Source of the DNA: a virus
Length of the DNA stretch: 24,489 bases
Virus record (IMG/VR): IMGVR_UViG_3300025128_000319
Span: 1-24,489 of that record
Direction: 5' to 3' (one strand)
The position numbers were made by a program, and so were the translations under genes. Shown piece after piece: positions 1,877-22,568 of the stretch. Position 1 is the stretch's first letter, and each line of letters opens with the position of its first letter. The notes under the pieces are model-generated. The model had not been told where the DNA came from. It ran no database searches and saw nothing but the letters and a program-made list of their open reading frames with translations.

Positions 1877-2419
1877 TTAAGCAAAAGTTACTGAAAAACT
1901 AAATTGACTACTATCACTTGAACCATAATCGTTTGTTACAGTGCAAGTAATTGATAAAGTTAATGTTTCTCCCGACTCTGTACCAGCCGCCATAAATGAA
2001 TAATCATCATAATCCCCATCGCTCGCATCGGGGTCGCCAACTGATATAGTTAAATCACTAAGATTCCCAGTATAACTTGCGGCCCAACCATTAGTATTCC
2101 CACTCCCTGTTCCCCAAGCAAAAGAAAGATTATTTAATTCATCATCATCAGTAACAGTGTATAATGCCTTTGTTTTTATAGTTACACCATTGCCAACATT
2201 TACTGTTTCATTAACGTCAAAACTACCACTTGGGCCTACCGTTTCGCCATTACCAACTAAAAACTCATTAACACTTCTACCTGCTACAACTCTAAGTTCT
2301 ATTTTATTTGCGGTATCATCGGGTGCGCCCAGTTGCACATTACCTACTGCTGAAAGACCACTAGCCGCAGTAGTCGCCACTGTTCCAAATCCTAATACAG
2401 TATAACCAAAACCACTCAT
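1877..2419 (-). CDS. Probable virion surface protein with Ig-like domain
   Basis: 180 aa. Its ATG overlaps the fibre stop codon by 4 nt (ATGA), so the two are coupled. The N-terminal part is Gly/Ala/Thr-rich (MSGFGYTVLGFGTVATTAASG). The C-terminal half alternates short beta strands with Asp/Gly turns: a DDDELNNLSFAWGTGSG segment, then TLTLSITCTVTNDYGSSDSSQF and a final hydrophobic strand. This resembles Ig-like or PKD-like repeats that decorate phage tails and capsids and bind surfaces weakly. Position directly after the tail fibre suggests a fibre-associated or decoration protein. No catalytic motif is visible. Confidence 0.6.
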   Translation of the reverse strand: MSGFGYTVLGFGTVATTAASGLSAVGNVQLGAPDDTANKIELRVVAGRSVNEFLVGNGETVGPSGSFDVNETVNVGNGVTIKTKALYTVTDDDELNNLSFAWGTGSGNTNGWAASYTGNLSDLTISVGDPDASDGDYDDYSFMAAGTESGETLTLSITCTVTNDYGSSDSSQFSFSVTFA

Positions 2420-4923
2420 GCATCATTCCCCGCATCAACTGTATAAAATATTTTAATTCCGATAAGTCTAGCATCACCCGTTTGGTTATCTGCTGAAATA
2501 TCTCGATTTATTTGAAAGTAAGTAACACTATCAACAGAAGCACCGCTAATTGTGACATTACCACTTTCTGCCGAAACCATCATATCATTAGTTGTACCGC
2601 TATGTGCTTTAGCAGTGGTCGCAACTTGTGTACCAAAAGCAGTATTAATATCATCACTGTCACCAAACGCAACACCTGATAACTGCCAAGCAACTGTTCC
2701 TGTATTTGTTCCTGTAACAGTCCAAAATGGCTGAAAAGTTATTACTCCCTCGTTCCATGATTTAGGGAACGATACTGTAAATTGAGCGAACTCATCCGAA
2801 GAAGCATCGAAATCTAAAACTTTTAATTCGGGGCCATTTGTTAATTCTACTTGTGCTAAAGCGGCACAACCACCAGTTGTATTAGGATACATAGCGGCGG
2901 CTGGAACCCAAATAGTATGCTTACCACCTTTTAAAAAGATTTCATCTGTACCAGCACCATCAATCATATGTAGTTCATTATCTGAATTGGTGTATAATTG
3001 TCCTCTATCAGCAGTATTTGTAGGGGCAGATATTTCATCTAAAGATAATGCCCCCTCAATAGACAATGCCGCATTAGTATCAGGGCTACTAGTTCCAATA
3101 CCAACATTACCCGCATCAGTAATTCTCATCCTTTCTGCCAATGTTCCAGCATTAGCGGTGGATAATACTAAACTTCCATCATCGACTCCCGTTACTTCAT
3201 TGATAGCAGAAATTCTCGCACCAACATAAGAAGTCGGTCCATGTGAATCGTAATTTTTTAAATCAATTCTAGCAAAATCTGTTCCAGTTGCGTTCCTTGC
3301 TCCTTCAATGATAACCGTTCTTGTTTCACCACTATCAGAACTTCTTGAAATTGTAGTATCTCCGCTTACTTCTAATTTAGCCGAAGGAGCAGTTGCGCCA
3401 ATACCAACTCTCGATTCTGAACCATCAATCCTCATTACTTCTGTTCCCGAAGAACCGCCATCATTTACTTGTAAAATAATATCTTTATTTGAAGTTACAT
3501 TTTGAATTATAACATCATCAGAAGATGTTGAAAGTTGTAAGTCTGTTCCTATTACTACTTCTCCTGAATCTTTTATTCTCATTCTTTCTGCTAAACTTCC
3601 AGCGTTAGAAGTTGAGATTACTAGGTTCCCATCATCAACTCCTGTTGCTTCATTAAATGAGGCAATCCTAGCGCCAACATAAGAAGTTGGCCCATTAGAG
3701 TCATAATTCTTTAAATCTATTTGAGCGTAAGCGGTCCCTGTTGCGAATCTTGCACCTTCTAAAATTAATGTCCTAGTTTCACTATTATCAGCACTTCTCG
3801 ATAATGTTGTATCTCCTTTAACTTCTAACAATGCAGTGGGGGTGCTAGTCCCAATACCAACATTTCCTCCACTAAATAAAGCGGCATAATTTGTATCCGC
3901 TGAACCTACATCAACTGTAAGACCTGTTGCTGTTGATGTTCCACTGGTCGCTCCAACAACATCAATATCCATACCTATAACAGATGATGTTCCTAAACTA
4001 GCAGAGTTAACATCTAAGTTAATTCCAATATCGTTATGTGCGGCTGTCCCCGAACCTGCAACTGTTCTATCAAAATCAACGTGAAGCCCTACTAAATCTT
4101 CTGCTCCATCTCCAGAAGTATCTGTGTTAACCACCATAGATTTACCATCAAAAGTTAAATTGGCTTCTCCTTGAATAGCATTTGCACCAGTGACAGTTGT
4201 AATTGTATTGTTGGTTGAACCAGTTAAAGCCGCACCACTTAATGCGGCAAGACTAGAAGCCGTTACTGTTTTAATAACATCAGAACTTCCAGCATCTTGA
4301 ATTAAAACTTTATCCGAACTAGCAACTGTCGCTGTTCCAATGTTAGAAATAAACAACCCATCAGAAGTTCCAGTAATACTACTTACCTCTGCATATTCTC
4401 CACTGTTATCATAACCGATAGAAACCGAATTAGATTGCTTAGTTGTTGTAAAGAATTGTGTCGCTAAATCTCCACTAGTATCTGTTGACTGAACTTTAAT
4501 TAAAGATATAGGAGTTGCTTGTGCTGGTATGTCGGGAACAACACTATCGGTAGTTCCTGAAACTCTACTAAGAACCGATGCCCCATTCTCTACAACAATC
4601 CAATGATATAAAGTTCCAGAACCTAATTGATTTAAAGTTAGACTAGAACTATCAGCAATAGTTACTAGTTTTCCTTCATTTAAAATAACTCCACCTTGAA
4701 CTACAACACTCCATCCGCTTCCTCCAGTTGGAGCAGTATAAGTATGGCTAAATCCAAAATTACCTGCGGAATCCGTACCACCGAAATCTAATGCTAAATT
4801 ACCTTGAGACATAGCATGTAACGCTTTAAATAAACCTGAATGTGGAGAATCAACTTTATCTGTTAATTGAGTTGTACCTGTTGTTCCCATAGAACTTAAA
4901 ACACCTGAACCAACCACTACCAT
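2416..4923 (-). CDS. Tail fibre with tandem VGIG repeats and receptor-binding-like tip
   Basis: 835 aa, ATG at 4923 with GGAGGT 8 nt upstream, 1 nt after the previous stop. The protein is Ser/Thr/Gly/Asp-rich. Two long repeats of about 100-150 residues (roughly residues 354-455 and 505-606) share VGIG, LEVKGDT/LEVSGDT, EGAR, IDLKNYDS, GPTSYVGARI, TGVDDG and LAERMRI. A third VGIGTSSP lies near residue 606. VGIGT-type repeats are common in phage fibre shafts. The last 165 residues or so (from about 670, HTIWVPAAAMYP) include a KVLDFDASSDEFAQF and FPKSWNEG pattern that I recall from the fibre tips of many marine phages. It is likely the trimeric receptor-binding fibre. The N-terminus (residues 1-130) probably attaches to the tail. 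Confidence 0.8.
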   Translation of the reverse strand: MVVVGSGVLSSMGTTGTTQLTDKVDSPHSGLFKALHAMSQGNLALDFGGTDSAGNFGFSHTYTAPTGGSGWSVVVQGGVILNEGKLVTIADSSSLTLNQLGSGTLYHWIVVENGASVLSRVSGTTDSVVPDIPAQATPISLIKVQSTDTSGDLATQFFTTTKQSNSVSIGYDNSGEYAEVSSITGTSDGLFISNIGTATVASSDKVLIQDAGSSDVIKTVTASSLAALSGAALTGSTNNTITTVTGANAIQGEANLTFDGKSMVVNTDTSGDGAEDLVGLHVDFDRTVAGSGTAAHNDIGINLDVNSASLGTSSVIGMDIDVVGATSGTSTATGLTVDVGSADTNYAALFSGGNVGIGTSTPTALLEVKGDTTLSRSADNSETRTLILEGARFATGTAYAQIDLKNYDSNGPTSYVGARIASFNEATGVDDGNLVISTSNAGSLAERMRIKDSGEVVIGTDLQLSTSSDDVIIQNVTSNKDIILQVNDGGSSGTEVMRIDGSESRVGIGATAPSAKLEVSGDTTISRSSDSGETRTVIIEGARNATGTDFARIDLKNYDSHGPTSYVGARISAINEVTGVDDGSLVLSTANAGTLAERMRITDAGNVGIGTSSPDTNAALSIEGALSLDEISAPTNTADRGQLYTNSDNELHMIDGAGTDEIFLKGGKHTIWVPAAAMYPNTTGGCAALAQVELTNGPELKVLDFDASSDEFAQFTVSFPKSWNEGVITFQPFWTVTGTNTGTVAWQLSGVAFGDSDDINTAFGTQVATTAKAHSGTTNDMMVSAESGNVTISGASVDSVTYFQINRDISADNQTGDARLIGIKIFYTVDAGNDA
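3110..3864 (-). repeat. Tandem duplication inside the fibre gene
   Basis: Two copies of about 300 nt lie at roughly 3560-3864 and 3110-3411. They are in register 453 bp (151 codons) apart: CCAACATAAGAAGT begins at 3674 in one and at 3221 in the other. The protein copies are closely similar, with the same motif order. The intervening stretch is less similar. The even codon offset keeps frame, as expected for a duplicated structural repeat. Confidence 0.75.
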
Positions 4924-4924
4924 A

Positions 4925-5347
4925 TCATTCGACCTCCATCGTGTATATCACTTCGATAGTATCAGTAGTTGAAAAGTTTCCTATTGCATCAAAATTAATT
5001 CTACCTAACATAACCGTTTCTCTATTTCCCGCAGTTGTAATATCATAATCTGCCGTTACATCTATATCTCCCATCTCACTATCCGTTGGTAGACTACCAA
5101 AGAAGCCAACTTCTCTGATAGTATATCCTTGTAAAGCACTACCACTAAATGATGTTTTTATTTCCACAACTCTATCATCCGATGAAGTTGCATTACTAGT
5201 TGCCGATGTGCTTAATGGAACATCTAAATCTGTAGCAGTAGGGTTTGTTCCTCCACCACCAGTTCCTAATTTGGTTGTTCCAAAGGTAGAACCAAACATT
5301 TCTCTTAAAAATAGAGCCATTTTTCGTTTCGTTGTATCTGTTATCAT
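4925..5347 (-). CDS. Tail-collar / fibre-attachment protein
   Basis: 140 aa. ATG at 5347 overlaps the giant gene's stop by 4 nt, with GAGG 7 nt upstream. The order of motifs matches phage tail-collar proteins: a GTGGGGTNPTATDLDVPLS segment near residue 28, IREVGFFG near residue 83, MLGRINFDAIGNF near residue 113 and a final strand IEVIYTMEV. In characterised phages such proteins (DUF3751 type) carry the fibre at the tail end. Its place between the hub-like giant protein and the fibre agrees. The usual collar proteins are longer at the C-terminus; here the fibre shaft is a separate gene. Family assignment is by motif recall. Confidence 0.65.
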   Translation of the reverse strand: MITDTTKRKMALFLREMFGSTFGTTKLGTGGGGTNPTATDLDVPLSTSATSNATSSDDRVVEIKTSFSGSALQGYTIREVGFFGSLPTDSEMGDIDVTADYDITTAGNRETVMLGRINFDAIGNFSTTDTIEVIYTMEVE

Positions 5348-8300
5348 ATTAAATCCTCATCTGTTATTATAGTTGTTATTGTATCTAATGGGGCCATAGT
5401 TGTTCCGAAATCTAATTTTCTTTCTGTTAATGTTTGGAATCCTAATGTGAATGCGCTAGGGTCCGCTAAACTAATCTTCTTAATTACTAGCCTTAATTCT
5501 TTCAGTTTAACTGTATCGAAAAAGTCTAAAGGAGCAGTAGTTGATGTGAATTGGGAACCTCTAATTGAAGCGGCATTTGACTTATTTAACATAGACAATT
5601 CTGCAAATCTATTTGCTAAATCTTTACGATATGTTCCTACTTCTAATTCAACTAATCCCATCAGTTCTCGTCTAATTTCATATATTTTATATTGTCCACT
5701 TTGTATTCCCTCTGCTGGAAAATCCAAAGTAATAATATCTCCAGACCTAATTAATTCAATACCATTCTTAGACATCTTAACTGTAAACCTATCATCGCCT
5801 TCTGAATGTGCCTTTAGTAAAGTCTTGGCTCTTGAATCAACATCATCTTGTGAAATAAGTTCCATATTTACATCCTCAAGAGTTTTCTTACCAAACTTCT
5901 CTATACTCTTACGATTTCTCTTAATTGTTTTTACTCCATTTCCATAGACAATGATTTCATTATAAAGGTCAAAAGTTGATTTGTTTCTAGTTACACTTAT
6001 AATGTTTAAGTTAGTATTATCATAAGATAAAACTATTGGCCTGTAATCTCTAACATTAGTTTGTTTAATTAAAGATATACCGATTTCATCTAATCTTATT
6101 TCTTTTTCTTTATATCTAGCCGCAAAGTTAGCCGCATTAAATATATCAATTCCTTGATAATTAGGAGCAATATAATATGGGTACTCTCTATCATCTTGTA
6201 TATCGTATTGTATATCCTCTGAACTTAATAAACTATTAATAACATCTTCAACTTCTTGTCCTATTACTATTGTTGAGCCTATTTTGGCAGACGAATAAGT
6301 TTCTGCTTTAGTTGGTTTATTAGATTTAAGAGTAAATGTTTCTCCAAAAGAAACTATACCTAACATATCATTTTCTATTTTACCAATGGATAATTTACAT
6401 AATGCTCTATCATCATAATAATCCGCTTCAACTCCCATAGATATTTTTTGTTTTGACAGCCCATCGGTTAATAACATATTATAAGGAGAACCAGATTTAA
6501 ACGTATTTCTATTACCAGTTGGATTAAATAAATGAATATAATCTCTCAATACTAAATATGTATTGTTGAATAACCAACCATTTGCAGAACTAGATAAAGC
6601 CGCATCGTTAGCAAATTTCCCCGCTATAGTTAAACTAGTATTGCTCTCTATTGACTTAACATAACATTTTTGATGGTCTAATAGTATTACATCTCCCTCT
6701 TTTAAATCAGTTAAGAAAGTAGTATTAGTTCCAGTAACTTGATTACTATTCAATGCTATTGTAACTCTATCTGAACCATCCCCTAAATGTAAATATTGAG
6801 CGTGTCTAGCATCAGGGTCAATAGCAACATACATTGACATTACTGCTTCATTGATACCAGTATGCGCTTGTAATTGATAATTACTATTCTTAGTATCTGG
6901 ACCTAAAAATTCTTGGTCTTTATTAATTCTTAATAAGTTAGGGGTATCCCCATACATTAAATCACTATCAGGTCTTTTGGTGGTTCTTGAAGATAAACAG
7001 TTAATATCTATTTCATTAGGGGAATTTCTCCATAAACAAGTTTCAGCAGGTCGCATAATTCTATAGTTATCATAAAAGTCTATTGCCCCACTATTATCAA
7101 GTGGGACATTATCTAATAATAACTCATGAGCAACTACTTTACCTGTTACATTTCTTTTATGCTCCTTAACATAAATAATATGATTAGGGTCAACCATAGT
7201 ATCAGCCATACTACTTTGTCCTTGAAAGTAACTAATTGCATTAGTGGTTCCTTCCGAATTCATATCTGCAAAATAACTAATATCATATACACTAGAATCA
7301 TTTTTAAACGGCCTAAAGTCTAACCTAGTTGGTTTTTTACCTACTTGAGTTCCAAAGTTAGCGACCAAATACATACCAGTTAAATCTACAAAATTTAAAA
7401 ATGGATTATAATTAGTAGAGCCTTCTACATCCATTTCTATTCTTAACGAGCCTTCTCTAGTCATATTATTAGGGCCATCACCAGCAACAGAAGTAAAACT
7501 AACAGTTCCTTCTTGAGTTTCAGAATTATTAAGAGCAGTTGTGCCAACTAAAGAATTTATACCTAAATATAAATTAGGAACAAATACACCAAATACACCA
7601 TCGGCCACATAATTTTTTGTCGCCTTACCTTCTTCTAATTCAACATAAAAAGTTGGGGATGCGGCCCCTGTAGTAGTGTTTTGTTCTGGTGAATCACCTG
7701 CAAGAGCCGCAAAACCAGCATTTTCTAATGAACCTTGTGCGCCTATAAATGTAAATTCATGACTTCTTTCATCTGCAAAATCTACTTCATTTCCAAAGGT
7801 AATGGTTGCACTAGTTTCTGTTCCCGACCCATCGGGGTCTATAAAGTTCACTTCTGTACCTCCTGTATTACTCATTGTAAATGCAGTTACATCAACACCC
7901 TCTGTTCCAGATGTTATAGTTCTAACAACTGCTCCACTTGGAATACCACTACCACTACTACCATCAGAACGTGTATAAGATGCTAGTGAATGCCCAACTC
8001 TAATTGTTGCAGACGAAGAACAATTAATTGTACTAGAGCCGTGAGTTAAAGTACAACCACTAACAGTAAAGGTTCCAGTTATTTTACCAAAACCATCTCC
8101 ATAAGTTTGTAAGGATTCTTCATCCGAATCTGCCGCTGGTGTTCTTAATCTAGCAGGTTTTGAATAAGGGAAATTTCTAGTCGCTCCACCCCTATAATCA
8201 GGAAACATACTTATTCTTGAGCCTATAGGAGTTTTAATTTTAGAAGCATTTTCAACCTCATATCTTCCTAATGCCACTACTCCGCATCTCCAATATGGAT

Positions 8301-11300
8301 TACCGCCTTCTTGAATCCATTCTAAAATATTAGATACATGGGAATACTCACTACTTATAGTATTAGTATCACTACTTGTTCCAGTATTTCTATTTACTAG
8401 ATAGGTTTTAGATTGCATTGCATTTATTGTTCTCTCTGGATTAGTGCTAGTAAAGTTATGAGCATAAAAAGTTCTAAAGCAAGGGGGTAAAGCGACTATG
8501 GGAGATACATATTGTGAACCTACACTAGCACTTTGAGCGAAATACATAAACGATTCATTAAAGTGTTCTAAAAATGTAGAAGAAGTAATGTTATCTGTTA
8601 AAGTATGGTCAGTTAATCCTGAAACGTTTTTACCCCAAGCAGTAATATTCGATATAGGGTCATTCTGAATATTTGCAGTATTACCATCAATAAAACCATA
8701 AGGAATCTGATAATGTATTGTAGTGCCGCTTTCTCTACGATTAGCATATCCATTCCACATTTGTTGTAGCATGTTAGTTCCTTTTTGTTTTGTAGGAGTT
8801 AAGAAAGAATTTTCCCCACCTCTGCCGTAAGTAGTAAACTGATAAAACGAATCCCACCAATCTTGAGTAGCAATAGTGGTATTTTTACCACAAACATATA
8901 CAAACCCATAATACAAACAAGGAGTCCCATCTGCCTTTAAAATAGGTCTTCTTGCATCTTCTACTAAAGTAAAAGAACTAGAACTAGTGTTTTCATCTAT
9001 AACTTTACCAATGTATTTTCCTTTATCTGTAAATATTTGGTCGCCTATTTCTAGTAAACTAGAAGGGTTAGCATCTACAGTTACTACGGTATCACTTGTC
9101 CCATATGCCGTTATCTCTAAATTTAATCTAACAAGTGGTTGATACCTAGTATATTCAAAATTAGGAGTTGTCATGTTTTTAATATCACTTATTCTTTCAG
9201 GGTCTACTAAATTAAAATGCCAATCATAAGTACAATCTATTAATCGCATTAATCCAAATCTTTTCATTTGAGAAGGAGTATATTCTGTTCCATCAGCATT
9301 TGTAGAAGAACTACTAATTGGTAATACTTCATATTGGTCATCTATTTCTTGTTCTTCTTCTAAAGCCCCCTCATAATATTCATGAGAAGTATTACTATTA
9401 GAGAAAGAACTTTCTCCCTTTAATAATAAACTATAATCTGTAAACTTCCTATTAACGGTTACACTATTTACAGTTCCCGAATAACCTATATGATGCTTTC
9501 TTGCCATAGAATCAGGATACATATCAGCAGGTGAAAACATAAACCATCTCTGAGTTTTAGGGTCTGGTAATTCCCAATGGTCTTTTGCTCTAGTAATACC
9601 GTCAAACTTTGGTCCAATCCAAGGAGGATAAAGGACACTAATTCCCATATCACCCGTAGTGGTATCAGCCGAACCTCTTACATCTCTACCTAATTTTGAA
9701 TTAGCCAAACTAACTCCTATTTGTGTGAACGGTGGAGTATCTACATCCATTTGTAATCTACCATTACCACTAGAAACATCAGCAAAACTACTCGCTAATT
9801 TAAATGTTCTATTGTTATTCTTATCGGGCCAACCAAATAACTTAACCCATCTATCGACTAAACTAGCAGAAAAAGTAGTGCTGTCATCTGCCGCAGGGTC
9901 TACATATGCGGGGGCTTCATTTGCGCCCCCCGTACCTGCCCACTCAATATCATAGGCTTCACCTTTCCATCTTCTGTAAACTAATTCATTTCCAGCACTA
10001 TCATTTAATGGTGATTCAGTATCTTCTTGCCAATCACCACCTCTAAAGTTATCATGTATTCTAGGCATAAATCTAGGGTAAATTAAAGAATTATAATTAG
10101 TCTCATCAGGAGAATAAATTGTAGTCCCATGTTTATTGAAATCAGCAAAGTTACTTCCCATAACTGGTCTAAAGTCTCTTGATTCTGGAGAAGAGTATTC
10201 TAAGAAATAGGGGTGGGTTTTAATTAAATTATCATCTCCATCCGAAGCGGCCTTATTATCGAATAACATTCCTATAGTTCCACTATCATCGACCATTTTT
10301 ACAGCCCAAGCATAATCATTATTATGATAACCATAAGGATATTTCATTAATTTATTTCTACCAAATTTAGCATCTGATATTCTATAAGCAGTAGCATAAC
10401 CATTTACTCTACCCTTATCGGTTGCATAGGTATCTTTAATCTGCCCATCTTTTCTTCTTCTATTAATGTAGGAAAGATACTTACCTCTTTGTAATCCAAA
10501 ATATCTCCATTTAGTATTACCATATCTATCTATCATATCAGAATATAATAAGTTAGAACCGTAAGAATATTGTCCAGTACTATCTCTACTAACGCTTTGG
10601 TCAGTTATGTGGTGATATATTCCACCACTCCATTTAACAGGTTTACGAATATTATCAGCGGCATTTGGGCTAGACAAAATAGGGTTAGTTAAAGTTACAA
10701 CTCCCCCTTGCCCCAATCCCTGAGTGTTTAAGAAATATAATCCTTGAGTAAAGTAATCTGTTAATACAGTTATTCTAAGTGTGTCCGTTAAACTACTATC
10801 TTCAAATAAACCACCAGCGCTATCAGTAAATTTAGTTGATTCATATTTTCTACTAAAGAAAACTAAATGAGCATCGTCAGACGAATCATCTTCGAATACA
10901 TGACCAATAGTAAATACTCCATTGTTCGCTCCTTTTTCATGTCCTTCTATATGTATTCTCATACCTGCCGATAAAGAAGATAAGAAAGCCATAGAAGCAG
11001 TGCCACTTGCAGTTAAAACTCCAACTTTATATTTTGTTCCTCCAAATTTATCTATCCCACTTGCATCATCGAAATCAAAATCATTGGCCGAATAATATTG
11101 TGGTGGACTTGCCTCTCCGTAGTATTTGTAAATACTTTCACTACTTGTTACTGATTTAAATAAGGGTCTATCTAAAGTAAAAGCAACCCTATCATTCGCT
11201 AATCCAGCATTAGAACCAGTACTAATGTCTATAATTTTACCAAATAAGTTTCCACTAGAATCAAATATAAAATCTCCTTCTTTTAATTCTTCTATGTAAT

Positions 11301-14300
11301 CTTCTAAAGAAGTTCCCGCACCTATTAGTTCAAATTGAAATATACCATTATATCCTTTAGGTTGAGTATCTGGAAAATTACCAACACTTACTAAATATTT
11401 ATCTCTACCGTCTAATGGGTTATTATCTACTCTTGCTAAAACCACTGGACAAATAGGAGCAACTTCTATTGAAGTTTCTTTATCTTTAGAAGTTAAATTA
11501 ACTATTTCATAATCAGTTAAAGAACTAACCGTATGTAAGTTAACAAAATCAATAGTAAATTTATCAGTTATTTCATCTGCTAAATGACAATAAAATGGTA
11601 AATCAAAATCTATTTTATCAGGAGCATGAATACTATATCCTTTGGCTAACGGATGATTACTACTTGAACTACCCACTAAAGTAGTGCTATCATTATAGGG
11701 CGCAAATTCATTACTTAAACTTAAAGAATTACCACCTGTAAAAATAATACCTTTATCACTAGTTCCACTTAATGAGTTTACTCTAGTTGTTGTATATGGA
11801 TTAGATGATAATGCTTTAGCAAAACTAATCGTATTACCTCTTATAAATTGTTTAACTGTTTCACTAGCCGCAGAAGTATCTAATATATCATCAGGTACAA
11901 CATCCAATTTTAAATCAGTACCAGAACGGTTTGCAAACTGACTAGAAATCATAATTACTTCGTCATCTTTTAAAGCAGTTGGTATTCCTTCTTCTAAAGT
12001 AAAAGTACTGCCACTAATACCGTAGATTCTACCTATGAAAACTCCTTGAGTTGTAAACAGTAAATCACCTTCATCAGCCGCTACATTCTGATTACTACTA
12101 TCAACTGCGATAACTATTTCAGTAGTGCCTACTTCATATCTTGCTCCAACACTTGAGTTATTTATACTACCATACATCATCATTCTTTCAACGGGACCGA
12201 TTGTGGAATAAACAATGTCTTCAGTAAATTTATAATCTTTATTTACTATTGGCCCTAATAATTTACCAACATCATTTCTACCTTTAACTTTTAATTTAAA
12301 CATTCCATCTTCTACGACTTGCTCAACACTCTCAACAACTCCAGAAAACACTCTTTTCTCTATATCGTAAACACCCTTAAAATAATCTAAATAAGATAAA
12401 GTTCCCCTAACGTGATTATTAGTAGTTAAACCGTTTTGACTTAAATCGTATCTTTTTTCACTACCACTAACAGGAACGCTTTCTGTATTAATAGGATAAC
12501 CATATAAAGATACATTAGACATACCATAAGAATAAGGAAGAAAATCTGTTTTATTATAAGATTCTAAAAACCTTTCATCTTTAAGATGTGTTTTTAATTT
12601 AATAAATTTATTTAGTTTATCTCCATACTCAACATGTAGTCTATGTCCAGTAGCAGAACCACCCCTTAATATAAAATTAATATCATTAATTCTACTATGT
12701 TCTTGTTTTTCTATAATACTAGAACCTACCTTAATAGAAGAACCATTTGTTTCAAATAAACTATTAAAAGTAGTTAAATTTCTTTTAGTTGGTGCGGCAG
12801 AACTACCATCATAATCTAAACTATAACCGTTTATTTCTGAGTCTATCGGGATGTTCGTCATAATATTATCTGCGTTAAAAGAATACTTTCTTCTATATCC
12901 CTTAGTGTTAAAACTAGGAACTGAACCTGCGGCCAATGTGGTTGTATTATATTCTGTATCAGTAGCCTTTCTCCATAACCTAGGAGTAATAATTTGAGAA
13001 CCACTTGAAGGGTTAGAAATACTATCAGGAATTATATGATATAAAGTTCCAGAAACACTTACAGTAAATCCGTCATATAGAGGGTCATCTCTTGAACCTG
13101 TATCTGTTTTACTATCAGGAATAGGACTCATTAATAAAAATCTTATATCTTGTCCTTCGGTTAAATTATCAACAGTTAGAGTTGTATCGCCGATAAAATA
13201 ATTAAAAGTTCCAATTTCAGAAATTCTATTTAACCCCTGTTCTTCACTAAATATTATTTCATGAATAAATAGAGGGTCGCCTTCTTTTATTTTTTTAGCA
13301 AGAATCTTTTGAGTATCAGCGAATACAATATCTACATATCCACCACTAGCAGTAACGGATTCGTAATCAATCATCTCCATAGCGTTTGGTGCTATATTAT
13401 TAGTCAAAGGAGAATCAGTATAATACATATATCTTGTTTGTCCTATTGCATAACTGTGGTAATTACTATCATCGTCATTAGGTCTATGAGCCATTCTAAA
13501 TGCATTTTTTAAATGATTAGTAGAATCAACGGCACAATACATTTTATTATGGTCTAAATCTACCGCATGGGATAAAAACTTTAATTGTAAATCATTATCG
13601 GTATCACTACTTTCATCCGCCCCAAAATCAGTATCATCTAAAAATAAAGTAGTAGCAGTAGCGTCTGTTGCGCTATCTATACAATAAACATCATCATTAT
13701 CGCTATCAGCACTATCACTAATATTAAATCTGGAATCTCTTAATATACCCGCTAATCCCCAATTGGTTCCTTCGGTTCCATCTAAATCAGTTTTAGAATT
13801 ATCAAAACTGGCACTAGTTCCATTTAATGTTATTTTATCTGCATTACTACTATAGTTTTTATGTAATTCTAAACTATCATCATCTATTAATAAAAAATCC
13901 ATAGCGGCTGGATTATCCGCTTTATACATCATATCTACTATACTTGCTTGCATAGTATAAGGACCATAATCAATAATATCTGTTCCATATTCTTGGTCGG
14001 TTACAAATGTAGAATAAGTATAAGTATGTGTAGAACCATTATAACTAGAACTTCTAAGTACGTATCTTGTAGCAGGTTCTAATTTATCTTTACCATTTAA
14101 AAAATAAAAGAAAGGACGAGAAGCATGGGTATTAAGATAATGTTTAACATTAGAAGTTGTTCCTAATAAACCATAACCACAGGCAACTAACGTTTGGTTA
14201 TCCGAATCTAATTTAGGCATGTTAGAGTCATTGGAATCAAAGACAGCAAATTTAGTATCTTTAGGGATATCAACTCCTAGACTTGGTGAGAACTCTATTG

Positions 14301-15105
14301 TGTCTCCCCATACCTCTGATTCTAAAATTTCAGTAATTTTAGCAAAATGATGATTATCAGCATTATCTGAATAAACTAATACCCATAAACTATCTATATT
14401 GTCTTTTAATAAAACTTTATCTCCGCTGGTATGAGAAGTAGCAATGGTATTATTAAATCCTCTAATTACTGTTAAAGAACCCGAAACCGCAGTTACTAAC
14501 ATTTCTTCATTATTAATAACTATTATGTCATTAACGGAAATACCAGTAGTGCTTGCTACTCCAATGGTGGTATCAGTAGCATCTTCATTTCCACTTAATG
14601 TAGTTTTATCTGTTATAAATCTTTGACCACTATTACTATGATAATCATAACTTCTTAGAATATTACCTCTAGTAGTTTCTAAATTAGATAAGTGGTCACT
14701 AGTGGTAGTTGAATTAGGGTATTTTCTATTTACTGTTGAGTAAGTTTGCGTAGCCGAACCATCTGTAGTAGTACCCTGCGCTTCATGAAAATGATAAGAA
14801 TTATTAATTCCAAATTTAGAATTAGTTAAAGTTGTATTATCTGCTTTATGTATTTCATAACTATTTATAGTATCAGCCGCAGATAAAAGTTTAAAATCAT
14901 CAAATCTTTCATGAACTTCCCCTCTGACTAATAAAGGATTTAAGGGAGTTTTATAAATTGCTTTTTGCATAAAGTTATCAGAATAGGTACTGGCATTTGT
15001 AATATTAGTATCTATAATATCAGTATTAGCCTGTGCTATAGTGTTTGCGGAAAATGCTTTGCGCATAGCAAAAACGCTGGTAAAGTCACCCATACCTTTT
15101 GTCAT
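5344..15105 (-). CDS. Giant 3253-aa tail protein with hub-like end regions
   Basis: A 9.8-kb frame, ATG at 15105 with GAGGGGG upstream and a 4-nt ATGA overlap with the previous gene. Residues about 170-233 carry a beta module (IVINNEEMLVTAVSG, then VIRGFNNT). Residues about 919-957 (VFSGVVESVEQ, then KVKGRNDVGKLLGP) look like the first part of a tail hub of gp27/gpD type. The last 310 residues (EVEDVINSLLSSEDIQYDI near 2950, DLYNEIIVYGNG near 3045, GDIITLDFPAEGIQSGQYKI near 3120) look like its remainder. Between them lie repeated GDxxF...G..IGKI modules near 1010, 1277 and 2020, a DLKEGDVILLDHQ module near 2800 and much unrecognised sequence. It is likely the central tail-tip protein. No lytic enzyme motif was recognised. 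Confidence 0.7.
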   Translation of the reverse strand: MTKGMGDFTSVFAMRKAFSANTIAQANTDIIDTNITNASTYSDNFMQKAIYKTPLNPLLVRGEVHERFDDFKLLSAADTINSYEIHKADNTTLTNSKFGINNSYHFHEAQGTTTDGSATQTYSTVNRKYPNSTTTSDHLSNLETTRGNILRSYDYHSNSGQRFITDKTTLSGNEDATDTTIGVASTTGISVNDIIVINNEEMLVTAVSGSLTVIRGFNNTIATSHTSGDKVLLKDNIDSLWVLVYSDNADNHHFAKITEILESEVWGDTIEFSPSLGVDIPKDTKFAVFDSNDSNMPKLDSDNQTLVACGYGLLGTTSNVKHYLNTHASRPFFYFLNGKDKLEPATRYVLRSSSYNGSTHTYTYSTFVTDQEYGTDIIDYGPYTMQASIVDMMYKADNPAAMDFLLIDDDSLELHKNYSSNADKITLNGTSASFDNSKTDLDGTEGTNWGLAGILRDSRFNISDSADSDNDDVYCIDSATDATATTLFLDDTDFGADESSDTDNDLQLKFLSHAVDLDHNKMYCAVDSTNHLKNAFRMAHRPNDDDSNYHSYAIGQTRYMYYTDSPLTNNIAPNAMEMIDYESVTASGGYVDIVFADTQKILAKKIKEGDPLFIHEIIFSEEQGLNRISEIGTFNYFIGDTTLTVDNLTEGQDIRFLLMSPIPDSKTDTGSRDDPLYDGFTVSVSGTLYHIIPDSISNPSSGSQIITPRLWRKATDTEYNTTTLAAGSVPSFNTKGYRRKYSFNADNIMTNIPIDSEINGYSLDYDGSSAAPTKRNLTTFNSLFETNGSSIKVGSSIIEKQEHSRINDINFILRGGSATGHRLHVEYGDKLNKFIKLKTHLKDERFLESYNKTDFLPYSYGMSNVSLYGYPINTESVPVSGSEKRYDLSQNGLTTNNHVRGTLSYLDYFKGVYDIEKRVFSGVVESVEQVVEDGMFKLKVKGRNDVGKLLGPIVNKDYKFTEDIVYSTIGPVERMMMYGSINNSSVGARYEVGTTEIVIAVDSSNQNVAADEGDLLFTTQGVFIGRIYGISGSTFTLEEGIPTALKDDEVIMISSQFANRSGTDLKLDVVPDDILDTSAASETVKQFIRGNTISFAKALSSNPYTTTRVNSLSGTSDKGIIFTGGNSLSLSNEFAPYNDSTTLVGSSSSNHPLAKGYSIHAPDKIDFDLPFYCHLADEITDKFTIDFVNLHTVSSLTDYEIVNLTSKDKETSIEVAPICPVVLARVDNNPLDGRDKYLVSVGNFPDTQPKGYNGIFQFELIGAGTSLEDYIEELKEGDFIFDSSGNLFGKIIDISTGSNAGLANDRVAFTLDRPLFKSVTSSESIYKYYGEASPPQYYSANDFDFDDASGIDKFGGTKYKVGVLTASGTASMAFLSSLSAGMRIHIEGHEKGANNGVFTIGHVFEDDSSDDAHLVFFSRKYESTKFTDSAGGLFEDSSLTDTLRITVLTDYFTQGLYFLNTQGLGQGGVVTLTNPILSSPNAADNIRKPVKWSGGIYHHITDQSVSRDSTGQYSYGSNLLYSDMIDRYGNTKWRYFGLQRGKYLSYINRRRKDGQIKDTYATDKGRVNGYATAYRISDAKFGRNKLMKYPYGYHNNDYAWAVKMVDDSGTIGMLFDNKAASDGDDNLIKTHPYFLEYSSPESRDFRPVMGSNFADFNKHGTTIYSPDETNYNSLIYPRFMPRIHDNFRGGDWQEDTESPLNDSAGNELVYRRWKGEAYDIEWAGTGGANEAPAYVDPAADDSTTFSASLVDRWVKLFGWPDKNNNRTFKLASSFADVSSGNGRLQMDVDTPPFTQIGVSLANSKLGRDVRGSADTTTGDMGISVLYPPWIGPKFDGITRAKDHWELPDPKTQRWFMFSPADMYPDSMARKHHIGYSGTVNSVTVNRKFTDYSLLLKGESSFSNSNTSHEYYEGALEEEQEIDDQYEVLPISSSSTNADGTEYTPSQMKRFGLMRLIDCTYDWHFNLVDPERISDIKNMTTPNFEYTRYQPLVRLNLEITAYGTSDTVVTVDANPSSLLEIGDQIFTDKGKYIGKVIDENTSSSSFTLVEDARRPILKADGTPCLYYGFVYVCGKNTTIATQDWWDSFYQFTTYGRGGENSFLTPTKQKGTNMLQQMWNGYANRRESGTTIHYQIPYGFIDGNTANIQNDPISNITAWGKNVSGLTDHTLTDNITSSTFLEHFNESFMYFAQSASVGSQYVSPIVALPPCFRTFYAHNFTSTNPERTINAMQSKTYLVNRNTGTSSDTNTISSEYSHVSNILEWIQEGGNPYWRCGVVALGRYEVENASKIKTPIGSRISMFPDYRGGATRNFPYSKPARLRTPAADSDEESLQTYGDGFGKITGTFTVSGCTLTHGSSTINCSSSATIRVGHSLASYTRSDGSSGSGIPSGAVVRTITSGTEGVDVTAFTMSNTGGTEVNFIDPDGSGTETSATITFGNEVDFADERSHEFTFIGAQGSLENAGFAALAGDSPEQNTTTGAASPTFYVELEEGKATKNYVADGVFGVFVPNLYLGINSLVGTTALNNSETQEGTVSFTSVAGDGPNNMTREGSLRIEMDVEGSTNYNPFLNFVDLTGMYLVANFGTQVGKKPTRLDFRPFKNDSSVYDISYFADMNSEGTTNAISYFQGQSSMADTMVDPNHIIYVKEHKRNVTGKVVAHELLLDNVPLDNSGAIDFYDNYRIMRPAETCLWRNSPNEIDINCLSSRTTKRPDSDLMYGDTPNLLRINKDQEFLGPDTKNSNYQLQAHTGINEAVMSMYVAIDPDARHAQYLHLGDGSDRVTIALNSNQVTGTNTTFLTDLKEGDVILLDHQKCYVKSIESNTSLTIAGKFANDAALSSSANGWLFNNTYLVLRDYIHLFNPTGNRNTFKSGSPYNMLLTDGLSKQKISMGVEADYYDDRALCKLSIGKIENDMLGIVSFGETFTLKSNKPTKAETYSSAKIGSTIVIGQEVEDVINSLLSSEDIQYDIQDDREYPYYIAPNYQGIDIFNAANFAARYKEKEIRLDEIGISLIKQTNVRDYRPIVLSYDNTNLNIISVTRNKSTFDLYNEIIVYGNGVKTIKRNRKSIEKFGKKTLEDVNMELISQDDVDSRAKTLLKAHSEGDDRFTVKMSKNGIELIRSGDIITLDFPAEGIQSGQYKIYEIRRELMGLVELEVGTYRKDLANRFAELSMLNKSNAASIRGSQFTSTTAPLDFFDTVKLKELRLVIKKISLADPSAFTLGFQTLTERKLDFGTTMAPLDTITTIITDEDLI

Positions 15106-17630
15106 GAGTTTTCCCCCTCAAATCTAAAATAAAGTAAAGTATTTCTAAAGTTAGGAATTAATGTATCTAAACTATTGAAGTTTTCTTTTACATCTTTAGT
15201 AATAGAAAACTCATGTATCTCTCCCATAAACTGTGAAGCCCTTCTAGTTTCTAAAACATCATTACCATTAGAACCTAAATAACAATCACTCTCGTCAAAT
15301 GCAAAATCAACAATAGGATTATTTGTTCTAATAGTTACATCTCTTACCGTTAAAGTTTCTCCAGTAGCCGCACTTATACTACTATTAATACTATTTTCAG
15401 TAATAACAAGAAAAGAATTATCAGTTAAAAAATCGTTAAAAACTAACCAAATACCATTCAAGTCTGCATCATTAGCACCTTCTATACTTACATAATCTCC
15501 AGCAGTTAGACCATGTGGGTCTATTGTAGTAATAGTAGCAGAAGGGTCGCCAACACCACCATCTCCAACAATATTGTTTATCACAAAATCTTTTTCATTG
15601 AACTGCTGGGTGGGAACTTTAACTCCATCAATCATTAAGTTTATTCTTTTAGCGTTGATGTCATAACTCATAGATAAATGAAATGGCCTTAAAAGATAAG
15701 ATGCTTCTTTCCAAGTTTCTCCTAATAGTGGAGCACCAAAAGAAGCATGTTTATCTCCACCGACATCTACTAAAGTTGCCCCACTGTCATTTACTAATCT
15801 TAAACCATTAAAAAGTTTGGAAGGTAAAGTCTTGTATAAAGTTCTAGCAAAATAAAATTCTTCTTTAGGAGTAACCGAGTCTGTACTTGTGTCTATAGTT
15901 TTATAATCTTGACCCGAATCAGTGTTGTTATTATCCGACTGTAAATTAGTTGTTTGAGTTGTACTGGCATCATAACCCCTAGTAACAGTTAAGGTATTTC
16001 CAGAAATAGCAGTTACTAAGACTAATTCATTACCTAATCGTAATATATCTGTTGCACTTATATCTCTAGCATCATCCACATAAAAAGTCGTTTCAGTTTT
16101 TGTTCTTACAGGTTTAACTAATTTACATGCGGCCATATATGCATAGTCAACATCATTATCTGAATCCGCATGAATAGTTTCTATATAACCCAAAGAAATA
16201 GGTTCTTTTTGTTCTATGGTGGATATATTAGTTGGTGATGAATTATTCCAATCAGAAGAATAAAATCTTGAAGTCGCAAATTGCGTGTATAATTTTCTTC
16301 CTCTCCACATCCTATTAGCCATATCTAAATTATTAGCCCCATCTACAGCGAGACTACTTCTTCCTTGATTAATGAAAGATATTACTCCTTCTGTATCTGC
16401 TCCCTTTAGAGTGTGAAAAACTGTCAAATTCCCGCTTGTCATAGTTTCATCAATTAATAAACTAGTAATAGAGTTACCAGCGGCAGTCCAGTCATTTGTA
16501 TCTAAAGTTAATGTTGTCCCAGATTGTATTCTAACTTGATAAAACCCATCATTACTACTAGAACCCACCACTTTAATAAATCTTATATTACTAGTCCAAG
16601 TACCACTTGCTCTAACTATAGTAAAATTACTACCAGTGAATGTCACATTTACGCTAGATGTATTTATTGTTTCACTTCCTCCACCTAAAGCCGCCCCACT
16701 ATAATCAGAACTATTAACATATACTCTATCAATATCTACTTGATAACCGTTATCTTGAATTATTCTATGATACTTTACTCTATCTTCACTACTCAGATGA
16801 ACAGGTTTTCCAAATACAAAATTAGTTTCATCTGTTTGTTCAATCGCTGAACCATAATATTCTTCATCGGCAGTTATAACTGGATTATTACTCTCAACAG
16901 TTACAGTACTAACATTTCCATTTTTATCTTTACCCTTTAACACACAACCAATTTTATATTCGGCTGGCTGATTCATATTTGTTCTAGTCATATTCTTTAA
17001 ATAAAATTCACAGTTATTATTATAGAATAATGTCATTTTATGATTTAATCTATTATCTGTATAAATAGGGGCAAATTGACTATGAGATATAGCAGTAGTC
17101 CCATCATATGCTCTAGTAACTGTAATTTCTGTTGAATTACCAAAATGCCTATCAATAGATACAATTAGCATTTTTTCATTATCTATTCTAATATAATTCC
17201 CACCATGTAAATATTCAGTACTAGTAACTTCAAATGCTGTAACAGAATCGTTTATTGCTTCTGCTAAGTAAGCAACATGTTCATGAGAGAAATACGCAGA
17301 AGACCTAGAACTAGCAACTGCTGTATTACCAACAGAAGAAAACGCCTTCGCTGTAAATGGTAGTTCTAAATTAGTAGCATCAATATTTGTGCTTACATTA
17401 GGAACCCCTCCAGTAGTAGTATAGTCTTTACCTATAGACCAACCGAAACCGTTTACATCATAAGGGGTTATAATGCCCTCAATTGTAAAAGAACTTTTAT
17501 GACCCCATAAACCATAAGGGTCGTCTGAATCTGTTGGTATATGTTTACTATAATCTAAATGAACATAACCGTCACCCATAATAGGAAATACTAATGACTT
17601 TTTATCTCCGCTATAAATCCTATAACTCAT
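15102..17630 (-). CDS. Tail-tip protein with LamG-like fold and repeated beta modules
   Basis: I choose ATG 17630 (842 aa, MSYRIYSGDKKSLVF): it has GTGAT just upstream overlapping the previous stop, while the longer TTG start at 17648 has no good site. The N-terminus (SFTIEGIITPYD near residue 45) and the C-terminus (FHLSMSYDINAKRINLMIDG near 645-665; GEIHEFSITKD and LLYFRFEG near 802-838) fit a LamG/concanavalin-like jelly roll with large insertions. The insertions carry two beta modules: IDNEKMLIVSI then TVTRAYDGTTA near 145-180, and LGNELVLVTAISG then TVTRGYDAST near 525-555. Another is PHGLTAGDYVSIEGANDADL near 705. It lies between the distal tail protein and the giant hub, so it is probably a tail-tip or carbohydrate-binding structural protein. 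Confidence 0.6.
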   Translation of the reverse strand: MSYRIYSGDKKSLVFPIMGDGYVHLDYSKHIPTDSDDPYGLWGHKSSFTIEGIITPYDVNGFGWSIGKDYTTTGGVPNVSTNIDATNLELPFTAKAFSSVGNTAVASSRSSAYFSHEHVAYLAEAINDSVTAFEVTSTEYLHGGNYIRIDNEKMLIVSIDRHFGNSTEITVTRAYDGTTAISHSQFAPIYTDNRLNHKMTLFYNNNCEFYLKNMTRTNMNQPAEYKIGCVLKGKDKNGNVSTVTVESNNPVITADEEYYGSAIEQTDETNFVFGKPVHLSSEDRVKYHRIIQDNGYQVDIDRVYVNSSDYSGAALGGGSETINTSSVNVTFTGSNFTIVRASGTWTSNIRFIKVVGSSSNDGFYQVRIQSGTTLTLDTNDWTAAGNSITSLLIDETMTSGNLTVFHTLKGADTEGVISFINQGRSSLAVDGANNLDMANRMWRGRKLYTQFATSRFYSSDWNNSSPTNISTIEQKEPISLGYIETIHADSDNDVDYAYMAACKLVKPVRTKTETTFYVDDARDISATDILRLGNELVLVTAISGNTLTVTRGYDASTTQTTNLQSDNNNTDSGQDYKTIDTSTDSVTPKEEFYFARTLYKTLPSKLFNGLRLVNDSGATLVDVGGDKHASFGAPLLGETWKEASYLLRPFHLSMSYDINAKRINLMIDGVKVPTQQFNEKDFVINNIVGDGGVGDPSATITTIDPHGLTAGDYVSIEGANDADLNGIWLVFNDFLTDNSFLVITENSINSSISAATGETLTVRDVTIRTNNPIVDFAFDESDCYLGSNGNDVLETRRASQFMGEIHEFSITKDVKENFNSLDTLIPNFRNTLLYFRFEGENS

Positions 17631-17634
17631 AATA

Positions 17635-18438
17635 TCACATACTTGCAAAGGCTATCTCAAATGATAAACTAAATTCAATAAAAGGAGAACCCCCAACAAA
17701 TGTAGTGTCGAATGAACGAACAAAACCCTCTAGCCCTTGTATAGTATTAGTATCTGTAACTATAGGTTTAGGAAACTTACTTCTAGGAACGCTCAAAGTA
17801 GCGTCTAATTCACTCCCACCTTTATCTCTTACAGCATAAGTAAAAGGAATCAAAGGGCAGTTTTCTGATGCCAACGAACCACCCACATTAGTTATTGTGT
17901 TTTCTCCAGCATCTTCATCGTGATATAAAAATTTAGGACCAACTCTCGAAGGAATTAGAATAATTAAACGATTTAGGTTTTGTTGTGATTGCATAAAAGA
18001 TGAATCTACATAAGAATGTATTAGTTGAGCGACTTCTTGAGCCGTCATTTTTACAGTAACATGACTACCATCTATATTATCTGTAACTTGAACAGTAGAA
18101 TCCAATGGGTCCTTTACATCTAATTCAAAATCACCAGCATTAAATTGTTTACGGATTGTTTGTTCAGTTATAATTCCGCTAAGACTGACTGACTTTGTAG
18201 ACATACCTAAATCCAAACCAAGAGAAACTGATTCACCAGTAGCAATACCTATTGCTGGAGTAGGGAAAGCAAATATATTTTTAGAAGTAGAGATAGAAAT
18301 ATTATCACATTTAAGTGCTATTCTATTTGTTTGAAAGTTTTTCATAGAATCACCTGCACTATCAGCAATAGGGCTTCTTGAACTTAAGTCAAGATAAACA
18401 TAATGAGAATCTAAATCAGTAGAAGAAAACGTAGCCAT
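17635..18438 (-). CDS. Probable distal tail protein
   Basis: 267 aa, ATG at 18438, one base after the tape measure stop, with GAGGT 7 nt upstream. The product is beta-rich and has no membrane segment. A central stretch, LGLDLGMSTKSVSLSGIITEQTI (cut here near residues 73-95), resembles the part of distal tail (Dit) and related tail-tip proteins in which a strand with SxxGxI follows a loop. It ends in FIEFSLSFEIAFASM, a final beta strand typical of tail-tube-like folds. In long-tailed phages the gene directly after the tape measure usually encodes Dit, the ring that closes the tube and binds the hub. The call therefore rests on place and general fold, not on a diagnostic motif. Confidence 0.55.
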   Translation of the reverse strand: MATFSSTDLDSHYVYLDLSSRSPIADSAGDSMKNFQTNRIALKCDNISISTSKNIFAFPTPAIGIATGESVSLGLDLGMSTKSVSLSGIITEQTIRKQFNAGDFELDVKDPLDSTVQVTDNIDGSHVTVKMTAQEVAQLIHSYVDSSFMQSQQNLNRLIILIPSRVGPKFLYHDEDAGENTITNVGGSLASENCPLIPFTYAVRDKGGSELDATLSVPRSKFPKPIVTDTNTIQGLEGFVRSFDTTFVGGSPFIEFSLSFEIAFASM

Positions 18439-18439
18439 C

Positions 18440-20149
18440 TTAATACCTCACATTAGTAGACGAAGAAGTAGTTCTATTTATTTCCGTATTCACCATTCGT
18501 CCTATTTTCTTTGCTATATCTCTTAACTCTGAATCTGATGCTCCCATTCTTCCATTAACTGAAACGTTAATAGTCGTACTACCCCTAGAACCGTTAGGAT
18601 TTACTTTTGCTCCTGTAGGTAAATTAACTAATTCTGGTCCTCTTTCTCCAACTATTGCTAAACCTCCTTTATCTATTAAACCACCAGTAGCCAGTAAAGG
18701 AATATCTGCAAATGGAGATATGGCATTTATTCCTTTAATTATAGTATTAACTATCCGTTTAAAGAATCCCATTACATCTCTTGTAAAGAATGTTGTTATC
18801 TTTTCTACTATACTCCCTCCTAATGATAAAAATTTCGCTTTTAGTTTTTCGAATACACTGCCCCAAAATGCACCACTAGTTAAAACAAGTAAAGCCTTAA
18901 AGTAAAGACCTAAAAGGCCAACTATTAAACCAAACGCTAATTTAACAATTCCTTTCATTACAGTAAATATAATAGCACCTAAACCTCCAAAGATTTTGGC
19001 TATACCTGTAATTAATGTCACAAACCTTTCATCAATACTACCACTCCCAAAGAATGCATTAAATATATCAAATACCCCACTGACTATAACAGCAAGGCCC
19101 TCAAAAATTTCTTTTGCCCCATCTACTAATGTTTTTATAACTTCAGCATCTTTAACCAAAGTTCTAAATAAAGAGAATATTACAAAGGCTTGTATTAAGA
19201 ACATAACTCCTAATAAAGCATATTTAGATGCCATCTTCATAACTTTTCCAAATGGTATTTTTCTAAATGCTTTAACACCTGACACAACAACTTTAATCAT
19301 GCTAAAAATGGGTTGTTGTCCTTTTGGGCTAAATAAACCAAGTGTTAAAAATTTAAATAAAGGACTATTCTTAATACCTTCCCCTATAGACTTAGCGGCA
19401 TCTATTCTTCTTTCACCTGCTAGGTCGCCTATTTGTCTTTTTAATGAAGCCCCTTTTTCTGTTGTAGCAAATCTAGGTCTAAATTGTCCTATTGAAAACC
19501 CTTGATTATATGCTTTTTCTTGTTGTTTAAAGGTTTCTCTTAACAGTTCTTCTTGCTTACGGATTTTAGTTACCCTTTCTCTTTCCGCCGCTAGTTCCAT
19601 TTGTTTTTCTTCTTCTTTTAATAAACCTTTAACTTGTTCACCATATCCTTTTTTAGTTTCTAATAAAACATCATGCATATCGCTATATTGTTTTTTAGTT
19701 CTATTTAGTGCAAATTCTTGTGCCTTTTGTTGTTCCATTCCAGCCGCATCTGCCATTGCATATGCATCAGCAACCTCTTCTATTGAATCACTTAAATCTT
19801 TAAATGATAGAGAAGCATCGTTTAAATCCTTTTGAACATCCGCTACCTTTTGTAATTCTTGCTGTACTTTACCCACACTTCTAATACTTTTTTGAGTTTC
19901 CTCAAATGCTCTATCTTGTTTTTTATAATAAAAATCTAATACTTGACCAAGAGAACGCATATAATTTTGTAATTTCCATAACCCACTTCCAGATAATACC
20001 CTACTAAATGCTGTCCATTTTTTACTCGCCTCTCCAGTTCCATTCGCTAATTCTCCGAAACTCCTAAGAAGACTATCTGACGCTTCTTTTTGGGTTTCAA
20101 GAGCAGAGGTTAAAGACCTAACAGAATCAGTAGCATTATTTAAACTCAT
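18440..20149 (-). CDS. Tail tape measure protein
   Basis: 569 aa, ATG at 20149 with GAGAGG upstream, 2 nt after the frameshifted chaperone frame ends. The first 240 residues are charged, helical and coiled-coil-like, rich in Gln, Glu and Lys (EEEKQMELAAERERVTKI). Hydrophobic segments lie near 309-328 (VMFLIQAFVIFSLF) and 380-435 (GGLGAIIFTVMKGIVKLAFG and following). The C-terminal third carries GLAIVGERGPELVNLPTG, a signature found near the end of many tape measure proteins. It sets tail length and helps DNA pass the host membrane. At about 1.5 Å per residue (rule from other phages) a tail of roughly 85 nm is implied, shorter than in lambda. Confidence 0.9.
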   Translation of the reverse strand: MSLNNATDSVRSLTSALETQKEASDSLLRSFGELANGTGEASKKWTAFSRVLSGSGLWKLQNYMRSLGQVLDFYYKKQDRAFEETQKSIRSVGKVQQELQKVADVQKDLNDASLSFKDLSDSIEEVADAYAMADAAGMEQQKAQEFALNRTKKQYSDMHDVLLETKKGYGEQVKGLLKEEEKQMELAAERERVTKIRKQEELLRETFKQQEKAYNQGFSIGQFRPRFATTEKGASLKRQIGDLAGERRIDAAKSIGEGIKNSPLFKFLTLGLFSPKGQQPIFSMIKVVVSGVKAFRKIPFGKVMKMASKYALLGVMFLIQAFVIFSLFRTLVKDAEVIKTLVDGAKEIFEGLAVIVSGVFDIFNAFFGSGSIDERFVTLITGIAKIFGGLGAIIFTVMKGIVKLAFGLIVGLLGLYFKALLVLTSGAFWGSVFEKLKAKFLSLGGSIVEKITTFFTRDVMGFFKRIVNTIIKGINAISPFADIPLLATGGLIDKGGLAIVGERGPELVNLPTGAKVNPNGSRGSTTINVSVNGRMGASDSELRDIAKKIGRMVNTEINRTTSSSTNVRY

Positions 20150-20732: not shown

Positions 20733-20737
20733 TTTAT

Positions 20738-20744
20738 CCACCTT
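20738..20744 (-). promoter_or_regulatory. Shine-Dalgarno site deciding the chaperone start
   Basis: AAGGTGG lies 5 nt before ATG 20732 and fixes that codon as the start, since the upstream TTG in the same frame has no matching site. Confidence 0.8.
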
Positions 20745-20753
20745 CTTTTTTTT

Positions 20754-20780
20754 ACCAACATACAAACAAACGGTGTTGGT
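20754..20780 (-). repeat. Hairpin upstream of the chaperone gene
   Basis: ACCAACA at 20754-20760 and TGTTGGT at 20774-20780 form a perfect 7-bp stem with a 13-nt loop. It occupies the gap between the Lys-rich 43-aa gene and the chaperone ribosome site. No T-tract follows leftward, so it is not an intrinsic terminator. It may be a processing or translation-tuning structure. Confidence 0.4.
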
Positions 20781-22554: not shown

Positions 22555-22562
22555 TTGCTTTC

Positions 22563-22568
22563 TCACCT
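22563..22568 (-). promoter_or_regulatory. Shine-Dalgarno site deciding the major tail protein start
   Basis: AGGTGA lies 8 nt before ATG 22554. Because an alternative GTG start falls inside it, the site favours the ATG. Confidence 0.75.

Follow-up and report, generated by a model that had tools for sequence, protein, structure and literature searches.

Can the hub at the tip of a virus tail be interrupted by some 2000 residues and still be encoded as a single protein? The question is raised by one gene in the window, the complete linear IMG/VR record of 24489 bp analysed here. This gene (5344..15105, minus strand) encodes a giant protein of 3253 aa and about 360 kDa, in which an earlier note had seen two hub-like segments, near residues 919-957 and about 2950-3250, that looked like the separated parts of one hub. 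The reading frame proved to be real and is matched by 69 distinct intact homologous genes, and profile comparison placed the two segments at residues 920-951 and 2952-3147.

The gene resides in a minus-strand tail module with the order tube, small gene, tape measure, 267-aa protein, 848-aa protein, giant, 140-aa protein and fibre-like protein. In this module, the tail tube protein (20929..22566) was recognised by Pfam Phage_tube_2 (E 1.3e-13), the 569-aa tape measure protein (18440..20149) by PHROG matches, and the tail fibre-like protein whose gene follows that of the hub (2416..4923) by matches to PHROG tail fibers. The 267-aa protein (17635..18438) lies between tape measure and hub in a kept gene order and by position could be the distal tail protein or hub connector. 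The 848-aa protein (15102..17648), assigned from module matches and gene order, adjoins the hub upstream and carries two mobile modules; its gene is about double the length seen in distant relatives, with counterparts of about 365-410 aa in most relatives. Among the 44 relatives' loci in which the three adjacent genes could be read, the order of tape measure, a protein of ~210 aa, one of ~390 aa and giant was kept with few exceptions in size. The giant gene thus has the position of a gp27/gp44-type hub, within the tail-tip cluster and past the tape measure gene, and searches of the window against Pfam, PHROG and NCBIfam returned no second hub candidate. Profile comparison of the neighbouring genes with HFTV1 gp41 and gp42 gave no match, including none of the 267-aa protein to gp41. 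Additionally, a 139-aa ORF (20346-20765, minus) sits where a tail assembly chaperone belongs, a protein that haloviruses make via programmed frameshift; a 153-aa ORF past the fibre genes (1407-1868, minus) has a weak methyltransferase-fold match; and an exonuclease-like ORF on the opposite strand (132-746, plus), with a weak match to RNase_T, probably marks the margin of the replication module.

The C-terminal end was compared with known hubs through its predicted structure. An AlphaFold2 model of residues 2495-3253, built from a 62-row alignment, had a mean pLDDT of 66, with the hub part better predicted. Foldseek returned 45 matches to solved structures at E<=1e-3, almost exclusively tail hubs, including NF5 Tal, HFTV1 gp44, MuSo2, Mu gp44, T5 pb3, lambda gpJ and VgrG, to be read with the moderate confidence of the model and low global TM-scores in mind. 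In sequence, the C-terminal profile matched the baseplate hubs of haloviruses (hhalign, E 2.7e-8) as well as PHROG tail families, three family members matched Pfam YQBQ (E 2.1e-7), and residues 2952-3147 aligned to Mu gp44 110-320, domains II-IV, in a deeper profile built on hubs of the Mu gp44 type. The C-terminus is therefore predicted to have the hub fold, with hub domains II-IV (HDII-IV) recognisable in both modelled fold and sequence.

The corresponding hub domain I (HDI) is far upstream. With the same deeper profile, residues 920-951 matched Mu gp44 63-95, the end of HDI, at E 0.003, and none of 150 column-shuffled profiles reached this score. The HDI hairpin aligned in one register in three of six hubs, which none of 150 column shuffles achieved, and the FxG register of the Mu-type match was repeated on the HFTV1 and vir515 hubs. 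Against single hub families HDI alone is weak (E 0.003 to 0.17), and three of the six hub queries, namely the halovirus hubs, P2 gpD and THSA-485A, gave no HDI match by hhalign. Among the scanned segments of the giant, E<0.05 against the Mu profile occurred only within the two proposed hub parts. When the insert was excised in silico, these parts formed a single collinear alignment over Mu 63-320 with a score of 51.6 (E 2.9e-6), compared with 33.7 for the C-terminal part alone and no more than 35.9 for any of 46 control splices with other segments. Because no shuffle out of 150 and no control splice reached these values, the split-hub signal goes beyond chance. At the level of sequence profiles, a putative HDI tube domain is thus present upstream of HDII. 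The two matched parts are 14 residues apart in Mu gp44 and 2000 in the giant, and the usual gp27/gp44 arrangement, in which HDII follows HDI directly or after a small insertion, is not the one found here. Such direct succession is usual rather than strictly defining, given that lambda and RcGTA divide the hub over two genes.

Based on these matches, conservation and models, the protein can be divided as follows, all coordinates being on the minus strand. An N-terminal extension ahead of the hub (residues 1-800, 12706..15105) has conserved blocks near 250-400, 551-620 and 701-750. HDI, delimited by profile match and predicted strands, spans about residues 801-954 (12244..12705; upstream edge approximate) and ends in the hairpin with the GR[DN] signature (residues 920-951, 12253..12348). 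The 2000-aa insert (residues 952-2951, 6253..12252) was placed from profiles, conservation and model, and its edges may move by some strands. HDII-IV (residues 2952-3159, 5629..6252) rest on Foldseek and on the halovirus and Mu gp44 profiles, and are followed by a C-terminal segment (residues 3160-3253, 5347..5628) that is conserved in the alignment and mostly of low pLDDT. Small mobile beta modules are scattered along the chain. One, at residues 166-240 (14386..14610), also occurs in the 848-aa protein and is missing from distant giants; another, phrog_1980-like by PHROG match and module comparison, is at residues 2781-2850 (6556..6765); and a second module type at residues 1006-1085 (11851..12090) has a further copy at residues 1274-1347. 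The 848-aa protein has the module type of the giant's 166-240 and 2781-2850 at its own residues 127-203 and 514-574.

The architecture is common to a large family. Searches with the C-terminal 353 aa led to 20 loci, and wider profiles to 141 and then 184 relatives. Besides the window's own gene, 71 complete distinct frames with the C-terminal part were found in IMG/VR, 69 of which are giants of 1981-3557 aa. Every one of these 69 intact giants has both the HDI motif and the C-terminal hub, with 1054-2158 aa between them (three nominally negative distances stem from a secondary, weaker match of the C-terminal profile), and the smallest span that covers HDI together with HDII-IV is ~1490 aa. With 69 distinct intact homologous genes of matching layout, the giant is not an accident of assembly, and the layout looks like an established, so far undescribed design for the tip of a virus tail. 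The two remaining frames, L122 (break at 4480-4560) and L153 (480-620), look like frameshifts. A natural gene split was rejected for both: the break in L122 is a frameshift error, since its near-identical counterpart L121 is intact, and L153, which has no such intact copy, was judged likewise. A scan of genome contigs contained no relatives, and the C-terminal 2253 aa gave no tblastn match to named phages. The earlier claim that a hub is split by about 2000 residues is hence borne out by the profiles, the excision test, the Foldseek matches of the C-terminus and the occurrence of both parts in 69/69 relatives.

What fills the gap is not one well-known fibre family: the insert has no Pfam match, a single short PHROG match, to a mobile module, and no convincing PDB fold, and searches with the whole giant against Pfam, NCBIfam and PDB sequences yielded no family. 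In the smallest relative, the compact L062, HDI and the whole ~1100-aa insert are predicted to form a single ordered body rich in beta structure (pLDDT 78, pTM 0.81). Foldseek found no PDB match for this model at E<1e-3; the best reached E 2.8e-3 at low probability, and the weak matches were to tail proteins as well as Gar1-like small barrels over ~85 residues. The model matched two unnamed viral proteins in BFVD, A0A516M0A8 (E 1.2e-20) and A0A516LT38 (E 4.9e-7), which are large and uncharacterised and probably belong to the giant family. The insert is built of conserved core blocks alternating with clade-specific additions, among them the mobile beta modules. In its fast-diversifying region (residues 2101-2600, 7306..8805, minus), delimited by identity to the relative L005, identity falls to 15-52%, as against 89-95% in the hub-core bins. 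Such divergence fits a role in surface recognition, making this region a candidate receptor-recognition part, and could also be explained by relaxed constraint. Fast diversification together with location at the tail tip makes it plausible that the insert constitutes a novel structure for receptor binding or adhesion.

Known hubs provide several points of comparison. In the gp27-type hubs Mu gp44 and the MuSo2 43-kDa tail protein, both Foldseek matches, the HDI signature and HDII-IV are collinear with the giant once the insert is removed; Mu gp44 differs in having only 379 aa, a gap of 14 residues from one matched part to the other and no N-terminal extension. The hubs of haloarchaeal viruses (HCTV-2 gp44, HVTV-2, HCTV-5; phrog_21793) have HDIII-IV homologous to those of the giant (E 2.7e-8), and their gene likewise comes after the tape measure genes. 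At about 476-489 aa they are much shorter, and by inspection their HDI part is separated from the later part by a ~150-aa beta domain. In the halovirus hubs L163-L166 this small domain, recognised by eye and from the way YQBQ matches are split, occupies residues ~115-290, and its position between HDI and the later hub suggests that hubs of archaeal viruses have long had an insertion site here. HFTV1 gp44 (PDB 9H4P/9H7V), the second-best Foldseek match, shares the HDI hairpin in identical register; judged from profile positions, its 954 aa include an extra part after the hub core, whereas the extra part of the giant lies between HDI and HDII. In T5 pb3, lambda gpL+gpJ and RcGTA gp13+gp15, an HDII insertion is located near the giant's insert site, between HDI and the remaining hub, but is much smaller and without detected homology to the insert. 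This insertion closes the tube in T5 and GTA, and in T5 the tube opens when HDII-III rotate once the receptor is bound (PMC10038345). HDI and HDII-IV are on separate proteins in lambda (gpL/gpJ) and RcGTA (gp13/gp15) (PMC10721106), while the giant keeps both halves on one chain.

The identity of the virus was approached through the contigs of 20 of the window's relatives (36-185 kb). Chaperonin Cpn60 was present in 15 of these and family B polymerase in 19, in most cases divided into an N-terminal and a C-terminal frame. A chaperonin and a split PolB are both described for Aoguangviridae of the order Magrovirales (PMC10768690), and chaperonins also for marine group II viruses (PMC5332604). Magrovirales are marked by a split family B DNA polymerase and a chaperonin on ~90 kb genomes, genes that the relatives' contigs contain and for which the window itself is too short. 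MCM gave only weak matches, below the cut-off, in 7/20 contigs, and PCNA_N was found in none of the 20. With chaperonin and split PolB present, MCM weak and PCNA not found, the virus is likely, short of proven, to be a magrovirus of Poseidoniales, which are marine archaea. The contig of L062 (IMGVR_UViG_3300021958_000021, G014, 184733 bp) has both the chaperonin gene and the set of PolB halves twice, ~90 kb apart, and is probably two joined magrovirus genomes or a dimeric assembly. In the consulted parts of the magrovirus literature (PMC10768690, PMC5332604) a hub of this design was not found described, which does not by itself establish novelty.

Taken together, we consider it highly probable that the giant is a four-domain tail-tip hub of the gp27/gp44/pb3 type with a 2000-aa insertion between HDI and HDII, in a non-contractile-tailed magrovirus; it would be a trimer whose inserts form the tip and probably bind the receptor. 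The split hub, the C-terminal hub fold, the kept layout, the ordered insert and its fast diversification emerge from profiles, prediction and conservation; trimerisation, tube closure, receptor binding and opening we infer. In such a hub, the chain would leave the ring after domain I, form beneath the tube a large, ordered body of beta-rich structure and re-enter at domain II, and three such bodies, about 6000 residues in the trimer, would make the tip. They may shut the tube before infection, their variable outer part may recognise the archaeal cell surface, and receptor binding would then displace domains II-III so that the tube opens, as happens in T5.

Other readings differ in which part of this picture they replace. 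Residues 920-951 might be a beta hairpin unrelated to HDI, the C-terminal hub finding its ring partner in another part of the protein or in another protein; the weakness of HDI in single comparisons and its absence against three of six hub queries would fit, but the excision test and shuffles, the universal co-occurrence of the HDI motif with the C-terminal hub and the confinement of every scanned segment with E<0.05 against the Mu profile to the two proposed parts make this quite improbable. The giant could also be a long fusion protein in which a central fibre is joined to a hub-like fragment without hub function, the real hub being encoded by another gene. Its very large size and the adjoining fibre-like genes are in line with that, yet the window has no other hub candidate and the giant gene itself, coming after the tape measure gene, is where a hub is expected, so we regard a fusion of this kind as very improbable indeed.

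Two further alternatives accept the split hub and concern its fate or its function. A giant precursor cleaved in the virion, leaving HDI and HDII-IV on separate chains, would resemble the naturally two-protein hubs of lambda (gpL/gpJ) and RcGTA (gp13/gp15) (PMC10721106); neither a cleavage site nor an adjacent protease came to light, however, one reading frame is kept in all intact relatives, and cleavage appears unlikely. It is similarly improbable that the insert is mainly an enzyme, a glycan hydrolase or protease digesting the archaeal envelope, rather than a receptor-binding or tip-closing body: hydrolase domains do occur in some tail-tip proteins, and the HFTV1 hub is somewhat similar to xylanases and glycosaminidases by DALI (PMC12494034), but neither Pfam nor NCBIfam gave an enzyme family and no PDB enzyme fold was found at E<1e-3.

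Beyond the split hub as such, we tentatively raise a bolder possibility, more doubtful than the hub assignment itself: that magroviruses have a tip organisation without precedent, in which the HDI/HDII junction bears a fold of very large size, about 0.7 MDa per trimer and not seen before, which both shuts the tube and attaches to the archaeal receptor, in place of a separate plug, central fibre and receptor-binding protein. To our knowledge, the insert is the largest known in a hub. The four-domain hub type is known; what the data support as new is a giant insertion at the HDI/HDII junction common to a virus group. The analysis thereby identifies the likely tail hub of magroviruses, split by a huge insertion, and indicates that the HDI/HDII junction accommodates insertions from none to >2000 residues. 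Further, residues 2101-2600 are a candidate determinant of host range, opening the way to host prediction and expression tests.
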